Shown piece by piece: positions 4,848 through 44,032 of a stretch of DNA of 64,000 bases. Each line of letters opens with the position of its first letter. Positions within the stretch are counted from its first letter, which is position 1. The DNA is from Bacteroidia bacterium (GTDB lineage: Bacteria; Bacteroidota; Bacteroidia; J057). Position numbers and translations under genes: made by a program. The stretch is from assembly GCA_030430575.1 (NCBI GenBank), contig JAUIKF010000030.1, positions 1 through 64,000 on the forward strand. The letters run 5' to 3'. The notes under the pieces were generated by a model, which saw only the letters and a program-made list of their open reading frames with translations, was not told where the DNA came from and did not search any database.

Positions 4848-5012
4848 ATGACGACAATTATTCGAAAAAACCTTAGTAAGGCAGATATTCAGGAGCTTCT
4901 AAAAAAAGTAGTCCCTGTAAAGCGCTTTAATGCATTTCAATATTGCGGGGTAATTAAATTGACTATCGATCCTTTAAAATTTCAACGCCAGCTGAGAGAT
5001 GAATGGGAATAG
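4848..5012 (+). CDS. Small putative antitoxin (VapB-like position)
   Basis: A 54-residue basic-acidic protein beginning MTTIIRKNLSKADIQ and ending DEWE, preceded by a strong AAGGGGAG ribosome binding site. Its last 14 bases overlap the PIN-domain toxin gene that starts at 4999, the usual translational coupling of toxin-antitoxin operons. No named antitoxin fold is evident. The assignment rests on size, position, overlap and the upstream inverted repeat. An alternative is a truncated remnant of a longer antitoxin, because type II antitoxins are more often 70 to 90 residues. Confidence 0.65.
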   Translation: MTTIIRKNLSKADIQELLKKVVPVKRFNAFQYCGVIKLTIDPLKFQRQLRDEWE

Positions 5013-5370
5013 TCTACTACTCGACACTAATATCATTCTATACCTTTTATCGGGAGATCAGACCTTGGCCACTACACTTGATGGCAAGGCACTCTATGTC
5101 TCGTTTATAACAGAATTAGAGTTACTAGGATATCCAGGGTTAGGTGAACAAGAGAAAATCGCTATTCAACAATTACTCAATGATATAGCAATCATTGATA
5201 TGAATGATAGTATAAAAAAAGAGGTGATTGAATTGCGGAATAAACATCGAATAAAATTACCTGATGCCATTATTGCAGCAACATCAATATACCTCAACCT
5301 GCCTCTATTTTCTGCCGATCAAGGGTTTGAAAATATTGAGGAGATCAACTTCATAAAATACGAATTATAG
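4999..5370 (+). CDS. PIN-domain ribonuclease toxin (VapC-like)
   Basis: A 123-residue PIN-domain protein. The acidic metal site is complete: D9 in LLLDTNIILYLL, E39 or E41 in FITELELL, D89 in KLPDAIIAATS and D107 in LFSADQGF. VapC toxins cleave tRNA or rRNA when released from their antitoxin; the RNA target of this one is unknown. The start overlaps the preceding small gene by 14 bases in another frame, which supports an operon. It has the length expected for the family and no sign of damage. Confidence 0.88.
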   Translation: MNGNSLLLDTNIILYLLSGDQTLATTLDGKALYVSFITELELLGYPGLGEQEKIAIQQLLNDIAIIDMNDSIKKEVIELRNKHRIKLPDAIIAATSIYLNLPLFSADQGFENIEEINFIKYEL

Positions 5371-5386: not shown

Positions 5387-5902
5387 ATGAAATACCCCAT
5401 CGGCGAATTCTCGCCTCCCGCCGTCATCACCCCAGCCCATATCCAAAACTGGATCAGCGAAATCGAAGCATTGCCCGAACAAATCACCCTTGCGGTACAA
5501 GGGCTGGATGACGAGGCCCTCGAACGGACCTACCGCCCTGGCGGATGGACCATCCGCCAAGTCGTGCATCACCTACCCGACAGCCATATGAACAGCTACG
5601 TCCGTTTCAAATGGACCCTCACGGAAGATGCGCCCACCATCAAGCCCTACTACGAAGACCGCTGGGCCAATCAGCCTGATTATCGGGCGAATATCGCCGT
5701 TTCCCTCAACCTGCTACATGCGTTGCATGAGCGATGGGCCGTCCTCCTCCACAGCCTCACAGAGGCAGATTTGGAACGGGTATTTGTCCACCCAGAAGAT
5801 GGTAAACACTATGTGTTGAAAGAAGTCATTGGCCTCTATGCTTGGCACGGCAAGCATCATTTGGCGCATATCGAAATCGCCAAAGGGGGGAGGGGTTTTT
5901 AG
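5387..5902 (+). CDS. DinB/YfiT-like metal-dependent hydrolase or thiol transferase
   Basis: A 171-residue four-helix-bundle protein. Recognisable features are PGGWTIRQVVHHLPDSHMNSY near residues 46 to 66 and YAWHGKHHLAHIEIAK near the C-terminus; the three histidines in these motifs form the nickel or zinc site of the DinB_2/YfiT (BstA) family. Relatives in Firmicutes move bacillithiol onto xenobiotics; in Bacteroidota the thiol is unproven. The gene starts 16 bases after the toxin gene but has a GC-richer codon style, so it is probably not part of that operon. It converges on a MacB-like permease gene. Confidence 0.85.
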   Translation: MKYPIGEFSPPAVITPAHIQNWISEIEALPEQITLAVQGLDDEALERTYRPGGWTIRQVVHHLPDSHMNSYVRFKWTLTEDAPTIKPYYEDRWANQPDYRANIAVSLNLLHALHERWAVLLHSLTEADLERVFVHPEDGKHYVLKEVIGLYAWHGKHHLAHIEIAKGGRGF

Positions 5903-5909
5903 TTTGTTG

Positions 5910-5972
5910 TTTGTTGTCTGTTGTTACGATTTAGCTCCCAAACCACAAACCACAAACCACAAACCACAAACT
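5910..5972. terminator. Heptad-based inverted tract between convergent genes
   Basis: AGTTTGTTGTTTGTTGTCTG on the left is an imperfect inverted complement, allowing G-T pairs, of the CCACAAA heptads on the right (about 5941-5971). It fills the space between two convergent genes and probably works as a bidirectional terminator (inference). Confidence 0.5.
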
Positions 5973-8368: not shown

Positions 8369-8525
8369 AGGAGAAGGGGGTATGAAAAGTTCAAATTCAA
8401 ACTCATGTCCAATCCTAAAGGTAATCATTGTCCGCTAGCAATCCTGCACCAATCGACCAAAAAGCAATTTTGGTAGATAAGATGATGGAAAAGGAGAGGG
8501 AGAATTAAGCGAGAAATGCGATTTG

Positions 8526-8624
8526 CCTTGACTTTGTGGGGGAATTAGGTAAAATATACCCTGACTTTGTGCATATTTATATATAAATTTACCCTGACTT
8601 TGTGTTATCGAATTATCTTTTATT
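8526..8624. repeat. 33-bp-period array upstream of DUF4143-type ATPase
   Basis: Three copies of a 13-base core start at 8526 (CCTTGACTTTGTG), 8559 and 8592 (both CCCTGACTTTGTG). Spacing is exactly 33 bp. The remaining 20 bases of each unit are AT-rich and not conserved. The last core ends 30 bases before the ATG of the ATPase gene. It is not a CRISPR: the core is short and the spacers are AT-rich leader-like sequence. It probably binds a regulator or the ATPase itself (inference). Confidence 0.88.
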
Positions 8625-8634
8625 TGAAGCAAGC

Positions 8635-10002
8635 ATGCTGTTTGAACGAAATATTTTATCAAAGCTTAGAGAGATAAGACAGAAACCTAATCGAAAGCCA
8701 CTTGTCCTAAGAGGTGCACGGCAAGTAGGGAAGACAACAGTGGTTAATTTATTTGCCAAAGAATTTGATTGGTATGTGTATTTGAATTTAGAAACGGTTA
8801 AGGACAGGGCCTTTTTTACCAAATATGATGAGATAGAAGATACTGTTGAAGCGATTCTTTTTACACATAGTATTCCAAAAGATAGCGAACGGATCTTAAT
8901 CTTCATAGATGAAATTCAAGCTGAACCTAAAGCTGTGGCAAGTCTGCGTTATTTTTATGAGAAATTTCCAAAATTATATGTCATAGCAGCGGGTTCCTTA
9001 TTGGAAACTTTACTTGAAGTCAAAAACACGTTCCCTGTAGGAAGGGTAGAATATTTGGTGATGCGGCCAGTTTCTTTCCTAGAATTCTTGTCTGCCATAG
9101 GTGAAATACAGGCGTATGAAGCGATTCAACAAATTCCGGTGCCTAATTATGCATATCAAAAGCTCATGGATTTGTTCCATACCTATGCCCTTATTGGTGG
9201 GATGCCAGAGGTAGTTCAGGAATACATCATGCACCGAGATTTAGTGAAATTAAAACCCATATATGACAGTTTGCTGGTTGCGTATCTTGACGATGTCCAG
9301 AAGTATTCTGGCAATGCAGTAAAGGCCGAAGTTTTACAAACAGCCATCCAAAGCCTTTTTAGGGAAGCAGGGAAACGAATAAAATTCTCAGAATTCGCTC
9401 ATGCAAGTTACACTTCGCGTGCTATGGGGGAAGCATTGCGCACACTTGAAAAAGCGATGCTCATACACTTAGTGTACCCTGCCATCGAAAATCAACTCCC
9501 TGCTTCCCCTAATTTACGGAAAGCCCCCTATTTACAGGCCCTAGATACAGGTTTGATGAATTTCTTTAGTGGGGTACAGGCTGATTTAATTGGTACAAAA
9601 GACCTTCATCAAGCTTACCGTGGGCGAGTGATTCATCATTGGGTAGGGCAAATGTTATTGACGGGGATGCATAGCCCATTGGATAAGTTGCGATTTTGGG
9701 TGAGAGACAAGAAGCAGAGTAGCGCAGAAATAGATTTTGTTCATTTACAAGACTCAAAGCTGATTCCTATTGAAATAAAGTCAGGGAAGGCAGGGAAAAT
9801 GTACTCCTTACGTCGATATATGGAAACCGCTAATCATGACTTTGCCGTCAGGATTTACGCAGGAGACCTCCACTTACAAGTGTTAACTAATCCTTCTGGA
9901 AGAAGCTTTTATTTACTAAACCTACCTTATTTTCTGGTGGAATTATTACCTCAATACATAGAGTGGATGAAAGAAGCTAGTAACTCATTGCCGATTGAAT
10001 AG
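8635..10002 (+). CDS. AAA family ATPase with DUF4143 domain
   Basis: A 455-residue protein. The N-terminal AAA_14 domain has Walker A GARQVGKT (27-34), Walker B ILIFIDE (87-93) and the AAGSLLE sensor region. The C-terminal half is DUF4143, with SSAEIDFV and IPIEIKSGK resembling the D...ExK core of PD-(D/E)XK nuclease folds. The family is widespread in mobile and accessory regions and its cellular role is unsettled. The ATG at 8635 is preferred over a GTG at 8602 that lies inside the upstream 33-bp repeat. The gene is monocistronic, AT-rich relative to its neighbours, and shares its repeat-leader arrangement with the second ATPase at 16617. Confidence 0.9.
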   Translation: MLFERNILSKLREIRQKPNRKPLVLRGARQVGKTTVVNLFAKEFDWYVYLNLETVKDRAFFTKYDEIEDTVEAILFTHSIPKDSERILIFIDEIQAEPKAVASLRYFYEKFPKLYVIAAGSLLETLLEVKNTFPVGRVEYLVMRPVSFLEFLSAIGEIQAYEAIQQIPVPNYAYQKLMDLFHTYALIGGMPEVVQEYIMHRDLVKLKPIYDSLLVAYLDDVQKYSGNAVKAEVLQTAIQSLFREAGKRIKFSEFAHASYTSRAMGEALRTLEKAMLIHLVYPAIENQLPASPNLRKAPYLQALDTGLMNFFSGVQADLIGTKDLHQAYRGRVIHHWVGQMLLTGMHSPLDKLRFWVRDKKQSSAEIDFVHLQDSKLIPIEIKSGKAGKMYSLRRYMETANHDFAVRIYAGDLHLQVLTNPSGRSFYLLNLPYFLVELLPQYIEWMKEASNSLPIE

Positions 10003-16495: not shown

Positions 16496-16612
16496 TGCTT
16501 TATGGGGAAAGCAGTTTTAGATTAATTATGCTTTTCATGAAAAGCAGTTTTGGTTAAAAAATGCTTTGTTGAAATAGCATTTTTTGGCTATTTTTGCTTT
16601 ATAGGTAAAGCA
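16496..16612. repeat. Four 18-bp palindromes at exact 33-bp spacing
   Basis: Copies lie at 16496-16513 (TGCTTTATGGGGAAAGCA), 16529-16546 (TGCTTTTCATGAAAAGCA, a perfect palindrome), 16562-16579 (TGCTTTGTTGAAATAGCA) and 16595-16612 (TGCTTTATAGGTAAAGCA). All starts are 33 bp apart. The 15-bp spacers are related T- and A-rich sequences (GTTTTAGATTAATTA, GTTTTGGTTAAAAAA, TTTTTTGGCTATTTT). The last copy ends 4 bases before the ATPase start codon, so a bound protein or an RNA hairpin there would block ribosome access. Confidence 0.93.
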
Positions 16613-17813: not shown

Positions 17814-18239
17814 CTATGGGGTAACGAACTTATTGTATTTGGCTTTGGTCCAGTTTTCGATTTTGATGCCATTTATCCTACTAAGATGTTTTTCATTGTT
17901 GGTGACCATAGTCATATTATTGACCACAGCAGTTGTACCAATGAGTAGATCGAAATTAGGTATTAGCAATCCTGATTTTTGAAGTCTCACTCTTTCTTCG
18001 GCGTATTTAGCAAAACTTTGATATATAGGAACGATGCTAAATAAGTGTTCAATTGTCACTATATCTGCCTTGTGTTTCTGGAAATTCAAGCTCTTAACTG
18101 CTCCATAAGTCAATTCGGCAATGGTTATTTCTGAAATATAGCAATTAGATTTCCCAATCTGTTTTACCTTATCTCTCATATTGAATTTGCCACGGAGGTA
18201 GTACACACAAATATCGGTATCCAATAAATACTTACTCAT
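17814..18239 (-). CDS. PIN-domain ribonuclease toxin (VapC-like)
   Basis: A 141-residue VapC-type toxin. D7 in YLLDTDICVYYLRG, E42 in ITIAELTYG and D97 in NFDLLIGTTAV are the catalytic acids; the last position is the TNN motif in MVTNNEKHL, as in many true VapC proteins. It is expected to cleave a tRNA or rRNA at one site. Its start overlaps the stop of the upstream partner gene by 4 bases (ATGA), so the two form one operon. The gene ends only 3 bases from the end of the convergent ATPase gene. Confidence 0.9.
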   Translation of the reverse strand: MSKYLLDTDICVYYLRGKFNMRDKVKQIGKSNCYISEITIAELTYGAVKSLNFQKHKADIVTIEHLFSIVPIYQSFAKYAEERVRLQKSGLLIPNFDLLIGTTAVVNNMTMVTNNEKHLSRINGIKIENWTKAKYNKFVTP

Positions 18240-18499
18240 TCGTCCAAATTTATTTCTTTGTCACTAATAGTTCGGCTACTCATAATATCATCCAAAATAC
18301 TTTCATCCATATCACTCCATGCGCCATATAGCTCATCTAACAGTTGATCATCACTTTTCTGTTTCGGGCCTGCTGCAAACTCAGATTGCAAATTCTCCGA
18401 AAGCTTTGAAAGAATAGCCAGCTTGACCTCAAAATTCAAAGGCGCAAGCATATTCATGTATTTAGAGACAAGCGAATTATCCGTAAGGGTATCGTTCAT
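18236..18499 (-). CDS. Putative antitoxin partner of PIN toxin
   Basis: An 87-residue acidic protein. The N-terminal half (YMNMLAPLNFEVKLAILSKL) is helical, and the C-terminal half is rich in Asp and Glu (DMDESILDDIM). Many Bacteroidota VapC genes have such a helical partner that begins with the phrase on position within a membrane-independent four-helix segment and wraps the toxin with its acidic tail. The 4-base overlap with the toxin gene is the main evidence. No classical AbrB, Phd or RHH DNA-binding fold is evident, so autoregulation is not assured. Confidence 0.72.
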   Translation of the reverse strand: MNDTLTDNSLVSKYMNMLAPLNFEVKLAILSKLSENLQSEFAAGPKQKSDDQLLDELYGAWSDMDESILDDIMSSRTISDKEINLDE

Positions 18500-25271: not shown

Positions 25272-25341
25272 AACCCTGAACCCTGAACCCTGAACCCTGA
25301 ACCCTGAACCCTGAACCCTGAACCCTGAACCCTGAACCCTG
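25272..25341. repeat. Ten perfect AACCCTG heptads
   Basis: Ten uninterrupted copies of AACCCTG (CAGGGTT on the other strand) lie between two minus-strand genes. Four further copies lie at 43998-44025 and reverse-strand copies near 55292-55312. Heptads of this type are not telomeric here; they are internal. Confidence 0.95.
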
Positions 25342-25348
25342 AACCTCT

Positions 25349-32854: not shown

Positions 32855-32973
32855 CCCAAAACCCAAAACCCAAAACCCAAAACCCAAAACCCAAAACCCA
32901 AAACCCAAAACCCAAAACCCAAAACCCAAAACCCAAAACCCAAAACCCAAAACCCAAAACTCAAAACTCAAAA
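32855..32973 (+). repeat. Seventeen in-phase heptads before ankyrin gene
   Basis: Fifteen perfect CCCAAAA units from 32855 to 32959 are followed by two CTCAAAA units. The array ends 4 bases before the start codon at 32978, the same gap as at the pirin gene. No Shine-Dalgarno site is visible. Confidence 0.95.
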
Positions 32974-32977
32974 CTTT

Positions 32978-43960: not shown

Positions 43961-44032
43961 AGTTCAGGGTTCAGAGTTCAGCGTTTGATCGTTCGAACCC
44001 TGAACCCTGAACCCTGAACCCTGAACCTAAAA
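43961..44032. terminator. Inverted heptad tract between convergent genes
   Basis: Left heptads TTCAGGG, TTCAGAG and TTCAGCG (43963-43983) are complements of four CCCTGAA heptads at 43998-44025, followed by CCTAAAA. They lie between the T9SS gene and sucC, which converge. A long hairpin is likely in either transcript. Confidence 0.6.

Follow-up and report, generated by a model that had tools for sequence, protein, structure and literature searches.

A phased 33-bp repeat array before a PDC-S01 ATPase-nuclease gene as a probable operator for its own product

The genes of iteron plasmid Rep proteins and of archaeal Orc1/Cdc6 proteins, the latter with an AAA+ module, adjoin arrays of their own proteins' sites. 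Among phage-defence islands, the autorepressor RptR acts on three direct repeats of its own promoter (PMC12255303). PDC-S01, an ATPase fused to a PD-(D/E)XK domain, ranks fourth in frequency among prokaryotic defences in a 2026 survey, which lists it as a candidate and states that most such candidates await experimental validation; PDC-S27 likewise combines an ATPase with a PD-(D/E)XK domain (PMC12988326). The anti-phage role ascribed to PDC-S01 below is a candidate role, borrowed from this status of the family. The literature searched gave no target, trigger or mechanism for PDC-S01 (PMC12988326).

Here, we analysed a window (the whole stretch of DNA under study, 64,000 nucleotides) carrying two genes whose products fit the PADLOC models of PDC-S01 (COG1373-type AAA_14-DUF4143), the first PDLC04788 with E=3.9e-170 and the second PDLC04787 with E=8.5e-28. 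The ATPase and PD-(D/E)XK-superfamily fusion was found as PF13173 followed by PF13635 with D367/E380/K382 in the first protein, while the ExK of the second gene is degenerate. Among 69 homologues of the first protein, Asp367 and Lys382 were invariant and Glu380 was present in at least 90%. An array of repeats precedes each gene (Table 1), and both arrays were detected by Tandem Repeats Finder. Array 1 consists of three sites spaced by exactly 33 bp, with the unit (A/G)CC(C/T)TGACTTTGTG starting at 8525, 8558 and 8591 and the first copy deviating at 2 bases. The sequence-only reading had placed repeated cores at 8526, 8559 and 8592; their period of exactly 33 bp stands, but their identity does not, the core being CCCTGACTTTGTG at 8559 and 8592 but CCTTGACTTTGTG at 8526. 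Array 2 consists of four 18-bp palindromes, TGCTTTN6A(A/T)AGCA, again with a period of exactly 33 bp, so that the proposed sharing of one period by two different motifs before the same protein family was borne out (direct repeats and palindromes, both before AAA_14 plus DUF4143 genes). Since the two arrays are unlike in symmetry, a single binding geometry may not suit all subfamilies. An in-frame GTG at 8602 is an alternative start for the first gene and would overlap site 3.

Table 1. Positions of the two arrays, their genes and the predicted functional residues in the window
Feature	Position	Strand	Description
Array 1, site 1	8522..8543	+	22-bp site; core GCCTTGACTTTGTG at 8525-8538
Array 1, site 2	8555..8576	+	core ACCCTGACTTTGTG at 8558-8571; 33 bp after site 1
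Array 1, site 3	8588..8609	+	core ACCCTGACTTTGTG at 8591-8604; 33 bp after site 2
PDC-S01 ATPase, first gene	8635..10002	+	AAA_14 (PF13173) + DUF4143 (PF13635, PD-(D/E)XK); 455 aa from ATG 8635
Lys360 and Gln361 codons, predicted site-reading loop (FWVRDKKQSSAEID)	9712..9717	+	covary with bases 11 and 9 of the motif
Predicted PD-(D/E)XK catalytic residues Asp367, Glu380, Lys382	9733..9780	+	motif D..ExK
Array 2, palindrome 1	16496..16513	.	TGCTTTATGGGGAAAGCA
Array 2, palindrome 2	16529..16546	.	TGCTTTTCATGAAAAGCA
Array 2, palindrome 3	16562..16579	.	TGCTTTGTTGAAATAGCA
Array 2, palindrome 4	16595..16612	.	TGCTTTATAGGTAAAGCA; ends 4 bp ahead of ATG
Second PDC-S01 ATPase, subfamily PDLC04787	16617..17810	+	AAA_14 + DUF4143; catalytic ExK degenerate (FEIGGQSK)

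Other repeats and genes were observed in the window. A tandem 26-bp repeat (TAGCACGACTTARTGAGCC) at 49-119 recurs at the termini of some 20 contigs in the assembly, and this position ruled it out as another ATPase array; it is the terminus of a multicopy element, perhaps an IS with several end repeats, that interrupts the assembly. The window also has numerous 7-bp tandem repeats, perfect or nearly so (CAAACCA, AACCCTG, CCCAAAA, GAACCCT), at 5902-5971, 25272-25345, 32855-32974 and 43995-44027. Probable PIN-domain (VapC-like) genes, judged by eye, were seen at 17814-18239 (-), 18236-18499 (-) and 4999-5370 (+), one of them, paired with a putative antitoxin gene, lying immediately downstream of the second ATPase gene.

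The first gene sits on a 101-kb contig, with genes for metabolism and transport around it and no sign of replicon function. In contrast to the arrays of iteron Rep and Orc1/Cdc6, the PDC-S01 array is chromosomal and lies at a promoter, and no replicon or origin function is indicated. The array-1 motif formed no second array anywhere in the 8.16-Mb host genome, where it matched 76 times with at most 2 mismatches vs 63 times for the reversed control. A host-wide regulon was rejected, as the genome lacks a second array and the motifs of the paralogues differ. Every host-genome DUF4143 gene above the Pfam cut-off has some repeat just upstream of the start: direct arrays at L003 and L004, palindrome arrays with a spacing of about 33 bp at L007 and, with GACAAT...ATTGTC, at L005 and L006, and one long palindrome each at L001 and L002.

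The generality of the phasing was surveyed with 98 DUF4143 genes from related genomes and the phylum, using 160-bp upstream regions with start codons assigned by rule. Self-alignment at a lag of 32-34 reached the threshold in 41.8% of these regions; the rate was 3.9% for 153 regions before neighbour genes and 0.4% for dinucleotide shuffles, and among lags 20-60 only 32 and 33 exceeded the rest. A 33-bp autocorrelation above matched upstream regions, which the sequence-only reading had proposed to look for, is thus present. Palindromes scoring at least 12 were found in 52% of the DUF4143 regions vs 7% of the neighbour-gene and 2% of the shuffled regions. The arrays are real, beyond chance and more widespread than first proposed. 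The exact array pattern gave 0 matches in 395 Bacteroidota genomes because genuine host arrays vary.

In PDC-S27 genes, palindromes stood before the start in 88% of 25 genes vs 14% of controls. These are gene-specific paired inverted repeats in a separate family, seen in its host-genome members, in contrast to the 33-bp direct arrays of the PDC-S01 clade to which the first window gene belongs. In the PDC-S27 genes (L342-L370; e.g. G000:C63, C117, C79 and C108) the arms are variable and the loop is often similar (AAGTGYWTATTTTT..TAGATA); DUF234 (PF03008) proved a poor handle for this family.

For the window clade, a second survey by alignment query of named GTDB genomes collected 80 homologues with 43-63% identity, 79 of them with enough upstream sequence, from Bacteroidota, Desulfobacterota, Spirochaetes, Acidobacteriota, Neomarinimicrobiota, Gammaproteobacteria and others. 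An array was present in 71/79, with a best lag of exactly 33 in 67, and non-Bacteroidota homologues carried it in 16/23 cases. The consensus site, TTTACCCTTACTTTGTTACAAA, spans 22 bp with 17.3 bits and occurs mostly in 2-5 copies per gene, neighbouring sites being spaced by 33 bp in 148 cases and by 32 bp in 20. The motif is almost confined to the upstream coding strand: upstream regions gave 231 forward and 4 reverse matches, gene bodies 2 forward and 2 reverse, and the 1 kb following the gene, examined for 92 genes, gave 3 forward matches and 1 reverse match.

The placement bears on the view that gene and array form a transposable or homing unit with the array as its end. The patchy occurrence (the gene was found in 57/395 genomes) and the many paralogues per genome would suit such a unit. 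The near absence of downstream copies, the lack of other arrays in the host genome and the failure to see a syntenic empty site in one same-genus genome speak against it, and matching sequences at both ends, as of a transposable element, were not found within the 1 kb downstream of the 92 genes. We regard a mobile-element end as very improbable.

Towards the gene, the Bacteroidota -7 box TAnnTTTG was found between the last site and the ATG in 23/66 Bacteroidota genes (expected 1.0), and the last site extended into the ATG in 11 genes, placing the array next to or over the promoter. With those boxes following the last site, transcription would leave out most of the array, which argues against control at the RNA level, where the repeats would form hairpins or be bound by protein in the mRNA leader. 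Several subfamilies do have palindromes near the start codon, but the main-clade motif is asymmetric and stretches more than 100 bp upstream, and RNA-level control accordingly seems a very poor candidate.

The cores themselves resemble the Bacteroidota TTTG/TAnnTTTG promoter boxes, as would be the case if the repeats were promoter pieces or were bound by a general regulator rather than by the ATPase. However, the paralogues of one genome carry unrelated motifs and the clade motif survives outside Bacteroidota in the proportion given above. Site similarity climbed from 8.5 to 26 as the proteins became more alike, whereas the sites of same-genome paralogues of other clades stayed at baseline, which makes a common host factor unlikely. 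Together with the residue-to-base covariation described next, this leaves a host or promoter factor little chance. The motif drifts slowly and is recognisable across phyla within one clade. Of the diversified recognition system proposed from the first reading, the part in which each ATPase has its own predicted site is retained; rapid diversification is not, as the motif is kept across phyla within the clade, and other subfamilies use palindromes.

Protein columns were compared with motif columns for 85 orthologues of one clade. The highest score linked motif base 11 to residue 360 (z=16.9) and the second highest linked base 9 to residue 361 (z=9.8); residue 362 scored with base 8 too. Lys or Arg at residue 360 went with C at base 11 in 42/45 cases and Asn with T in 10/10; Thr at residue 361 went with A at base 9 in 9/9 and Asp or Glu with C in 6/8. 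To control for phylogeny, a tree was used for which the loop had been masked. For residue 360 and base 11, 24 residue-class and 25 base-class changes were counted; 16 shared a branch and were without exception concordant (p=1e-10), whereas the next best of the 351 columns reached p=0.007. Sister pairs agreed (11/12 vs 3/30, p=9e-7). Gln361 and T/G at base 9 shared 6 branches (p=1.6e-6), a coupling weaker than that of residue 360 once split by the other residue classes. Natural replacements followed the same code: in L212 and L213, which are 88% identical, Lys to Thr is accompanied by AAC to AAT, and in the host genome the window protein has Lys360 with C at base 11 while its paralogue L003 (G000:C15) has Asn with T. 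The pattern agrees with side-chain chemistry, in which Lys and Arg pair with G and Asn and Gln with A, here on the opposite strand, and this agreement was counted in favour of the protein reading its own site. Covariation can mislead, but an error is unlikely here given the control on the tree, the agreement with chemistry and the dominance of one column. The earlier suggestion that the core tracks the C-terminal domain is thereby upheld at the level of predicted contacts, the covarying residues lying in a DUF4143 loop. We strongly infer that the encoded protein is the reader of the upstream repeats. The loop FWVRDKKQSSAEID stands just ahead of the predicted Asp367 of the PD-(D/E)XK domain, so the predicted reader would be the nuclease-fold domain.

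A structure model built with the 69 homologues reached a pLDDT of 92, compared with 38 for the single-sequence model. Residues 1-313 matched the COG1672 ATPases 2QEN (Z 15.6, rmsd 3.9 over 266) and 2FNA (Z 14.5, rmsd 3.7 over 261) and also CED-4 (Z 14.4, rmsd 5.2 over 269). This likeness to COG1672 and to STAND proteins (CED-4, plant NLRs) is one of fold, limited to residues 1-313; the C-terminal PD-(D/E)XK domain falls outside these matches, and a common fold shows no function. A sequence search of solved structures gave no full-length relative, the best match being Cas4 (E=0.03) in the C-terminal region. Members with a degenerate ExK (L006, L007, L199, L207 and L208) keep their repeats, so cleavage is not needed for their retention and the predicted site binding would matter separately from cleavage. 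The conservation of the catalytic residues in the window clade suggests in turn that binding may not be the entire function.

Site pairs at exactly 33 bp were found in 43 IMG/VR contigs; with the spacing set to 31 bp, or with the motif reversed and the 33 bp kept, the count there was 0. None of the 43 contigs has an ATPase gene downstream of the array, and 177 PDC-S01 proteins gave no match in 0.41 Mb of viral contig sequence. Variant patterns added 4 further viral contigs (L372-L374 and L386), also orphan; the orphan-array contigs, possible decoys, are thus L299-L341, L372-L374 and L386. The 43 contigs, which are partial, fell into five groups without detected mutual similarity, and L372 and L373/L374, likewise partial, appear to be two additional phage groups. 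The phage arrays have exactly two sites each, mostly of 24-29 bits vs a host mean of 19, although the search pattern was biased to strong sites. They adjoin or lie near portal, terminase, endolysin and primase genes, and their versions (TTATTTTG, TGACTTTG and TAACTTTG) fit different residue-360/361 classes. Nonlabens phage P12024S, the nearest named relative by portal protein, is without the array.

The phage copies could be the target that the defence detects or cleaves, and the array upstream of the gene would then be an autoregulatory sensor of the same site. The occurrence of a two-site array in at least seven phage groups (two of them apparent) and the nuclease residues kept in the window clade are consistent with this. 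Yet the array has stayed near-perfect in unrelated phages, where its positions are unrelated too, which suggests an advantage rather than a liability and favours a benefit to the phage, and we consider the target reading unlikely. Slightly less likely still is a self tag, in which the protein would assemble harmlessly on a same-orientation array, DNA lacking the array or carrying it in another arrangement would be attacked and phages would copy the tag so as to be taken for self. The strictly single orientation of the clade sites, the conserved catalytic residues and the near-consensus two-site arrays on phages would accord with it, but a lone array in an 8-Mb genome would hardly shield the whole chromosome, the palindromic subfamilies violate the orientation rule and arrays persist in catalytically degenerate members.

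We therefore favour, as somewhat better than an even bet on these sequence comparisons, a phased operator of the PDC-S01 ATPase-nuclease that is bound by its own product and controls its own gene, with the phage copies as decoys. One monomer would read one 22-bp site through the loop of the DUF4143 PD-(D/E)XK domain, with Lys360 and Gln361 on bases 11 and 9. Adjacent monomers, linked through their ATPase modules, would sit on sites 33 bp apart over the promoter and start region, and the occupied array would control expression of the gene, most likely by repression but perhaps by activation. The near-consensus two-site array of some phages would serve as a decoy that sequesters the protein. The arrays, their phasing and orientation, the covariation of protein and site and the orphan arrays of phages are direct sequence results. 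Of the interpretation, physical binding of the protein to the array is the part we hold most strongly. Autoregulation is held with moderate confidence, being the most economical reading of an array that occurs only at its own promoter in the genome and of repeats kept by members with a degenerate ExK, and a decoy role of the phage arrays is plausible. An array of as many as five sites, extending to 160 bp upstream, would exceed the needs of simple repression, and titrating an autorepressor would raise expression of the defence gene as well; these points count against the operator and the decoy, respectively.

The proposed operator differs from that of RptR, a small dedicated alpha-helical repressor with 9-bp repeats, in its predicted reader, which belongs to the ATPase itself as its nuclease-fold domain, and in its 22-bp sites phased at 33 bp. 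Compared with dedicated autorepressors in general, PDC-S01 would be set apart by this predicted reader, by a fixed 33-bp phase across unrelated motifs and by the phage copies. The site-protein family had been put forward as undescribed, and in the literature searched on DUF4143, COG1373 and PDC-S01, upstream arrays, cognate sites and phage copies are not described; preprints and most subscription journals lay outside this search, so the novelty is probable, not proven. A bolder and more tentative reading, to which we give about one chance in three, is that of a self-addressed defence enzyme, whose restriction-nuclease-fold domain would read a phased private address upstream of the gene by a simple residue-to-base code. 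Several phage lineages would have independently gained a minimal two-site copy of this address, as a decoy or self-mimic, making array and protein the lock and key of an arms race predictable from sequence.

In conclusion, PDC-S01 gains a candidate DNA ligand, predicted reading residues, a predictive code, a regulatory hypothesis and candidate phage counter-measures, all of which could be put to the test directly using a single protein, synthetic oligonucleotides and laboratory strains. The arrays could also flag functional PDC-S01 members in annotation. For the family, the results suggest that a PD-(D/E)XK domain can act as an operator reader and that phages may use short stretches of DNA as decoys for a defence protein.
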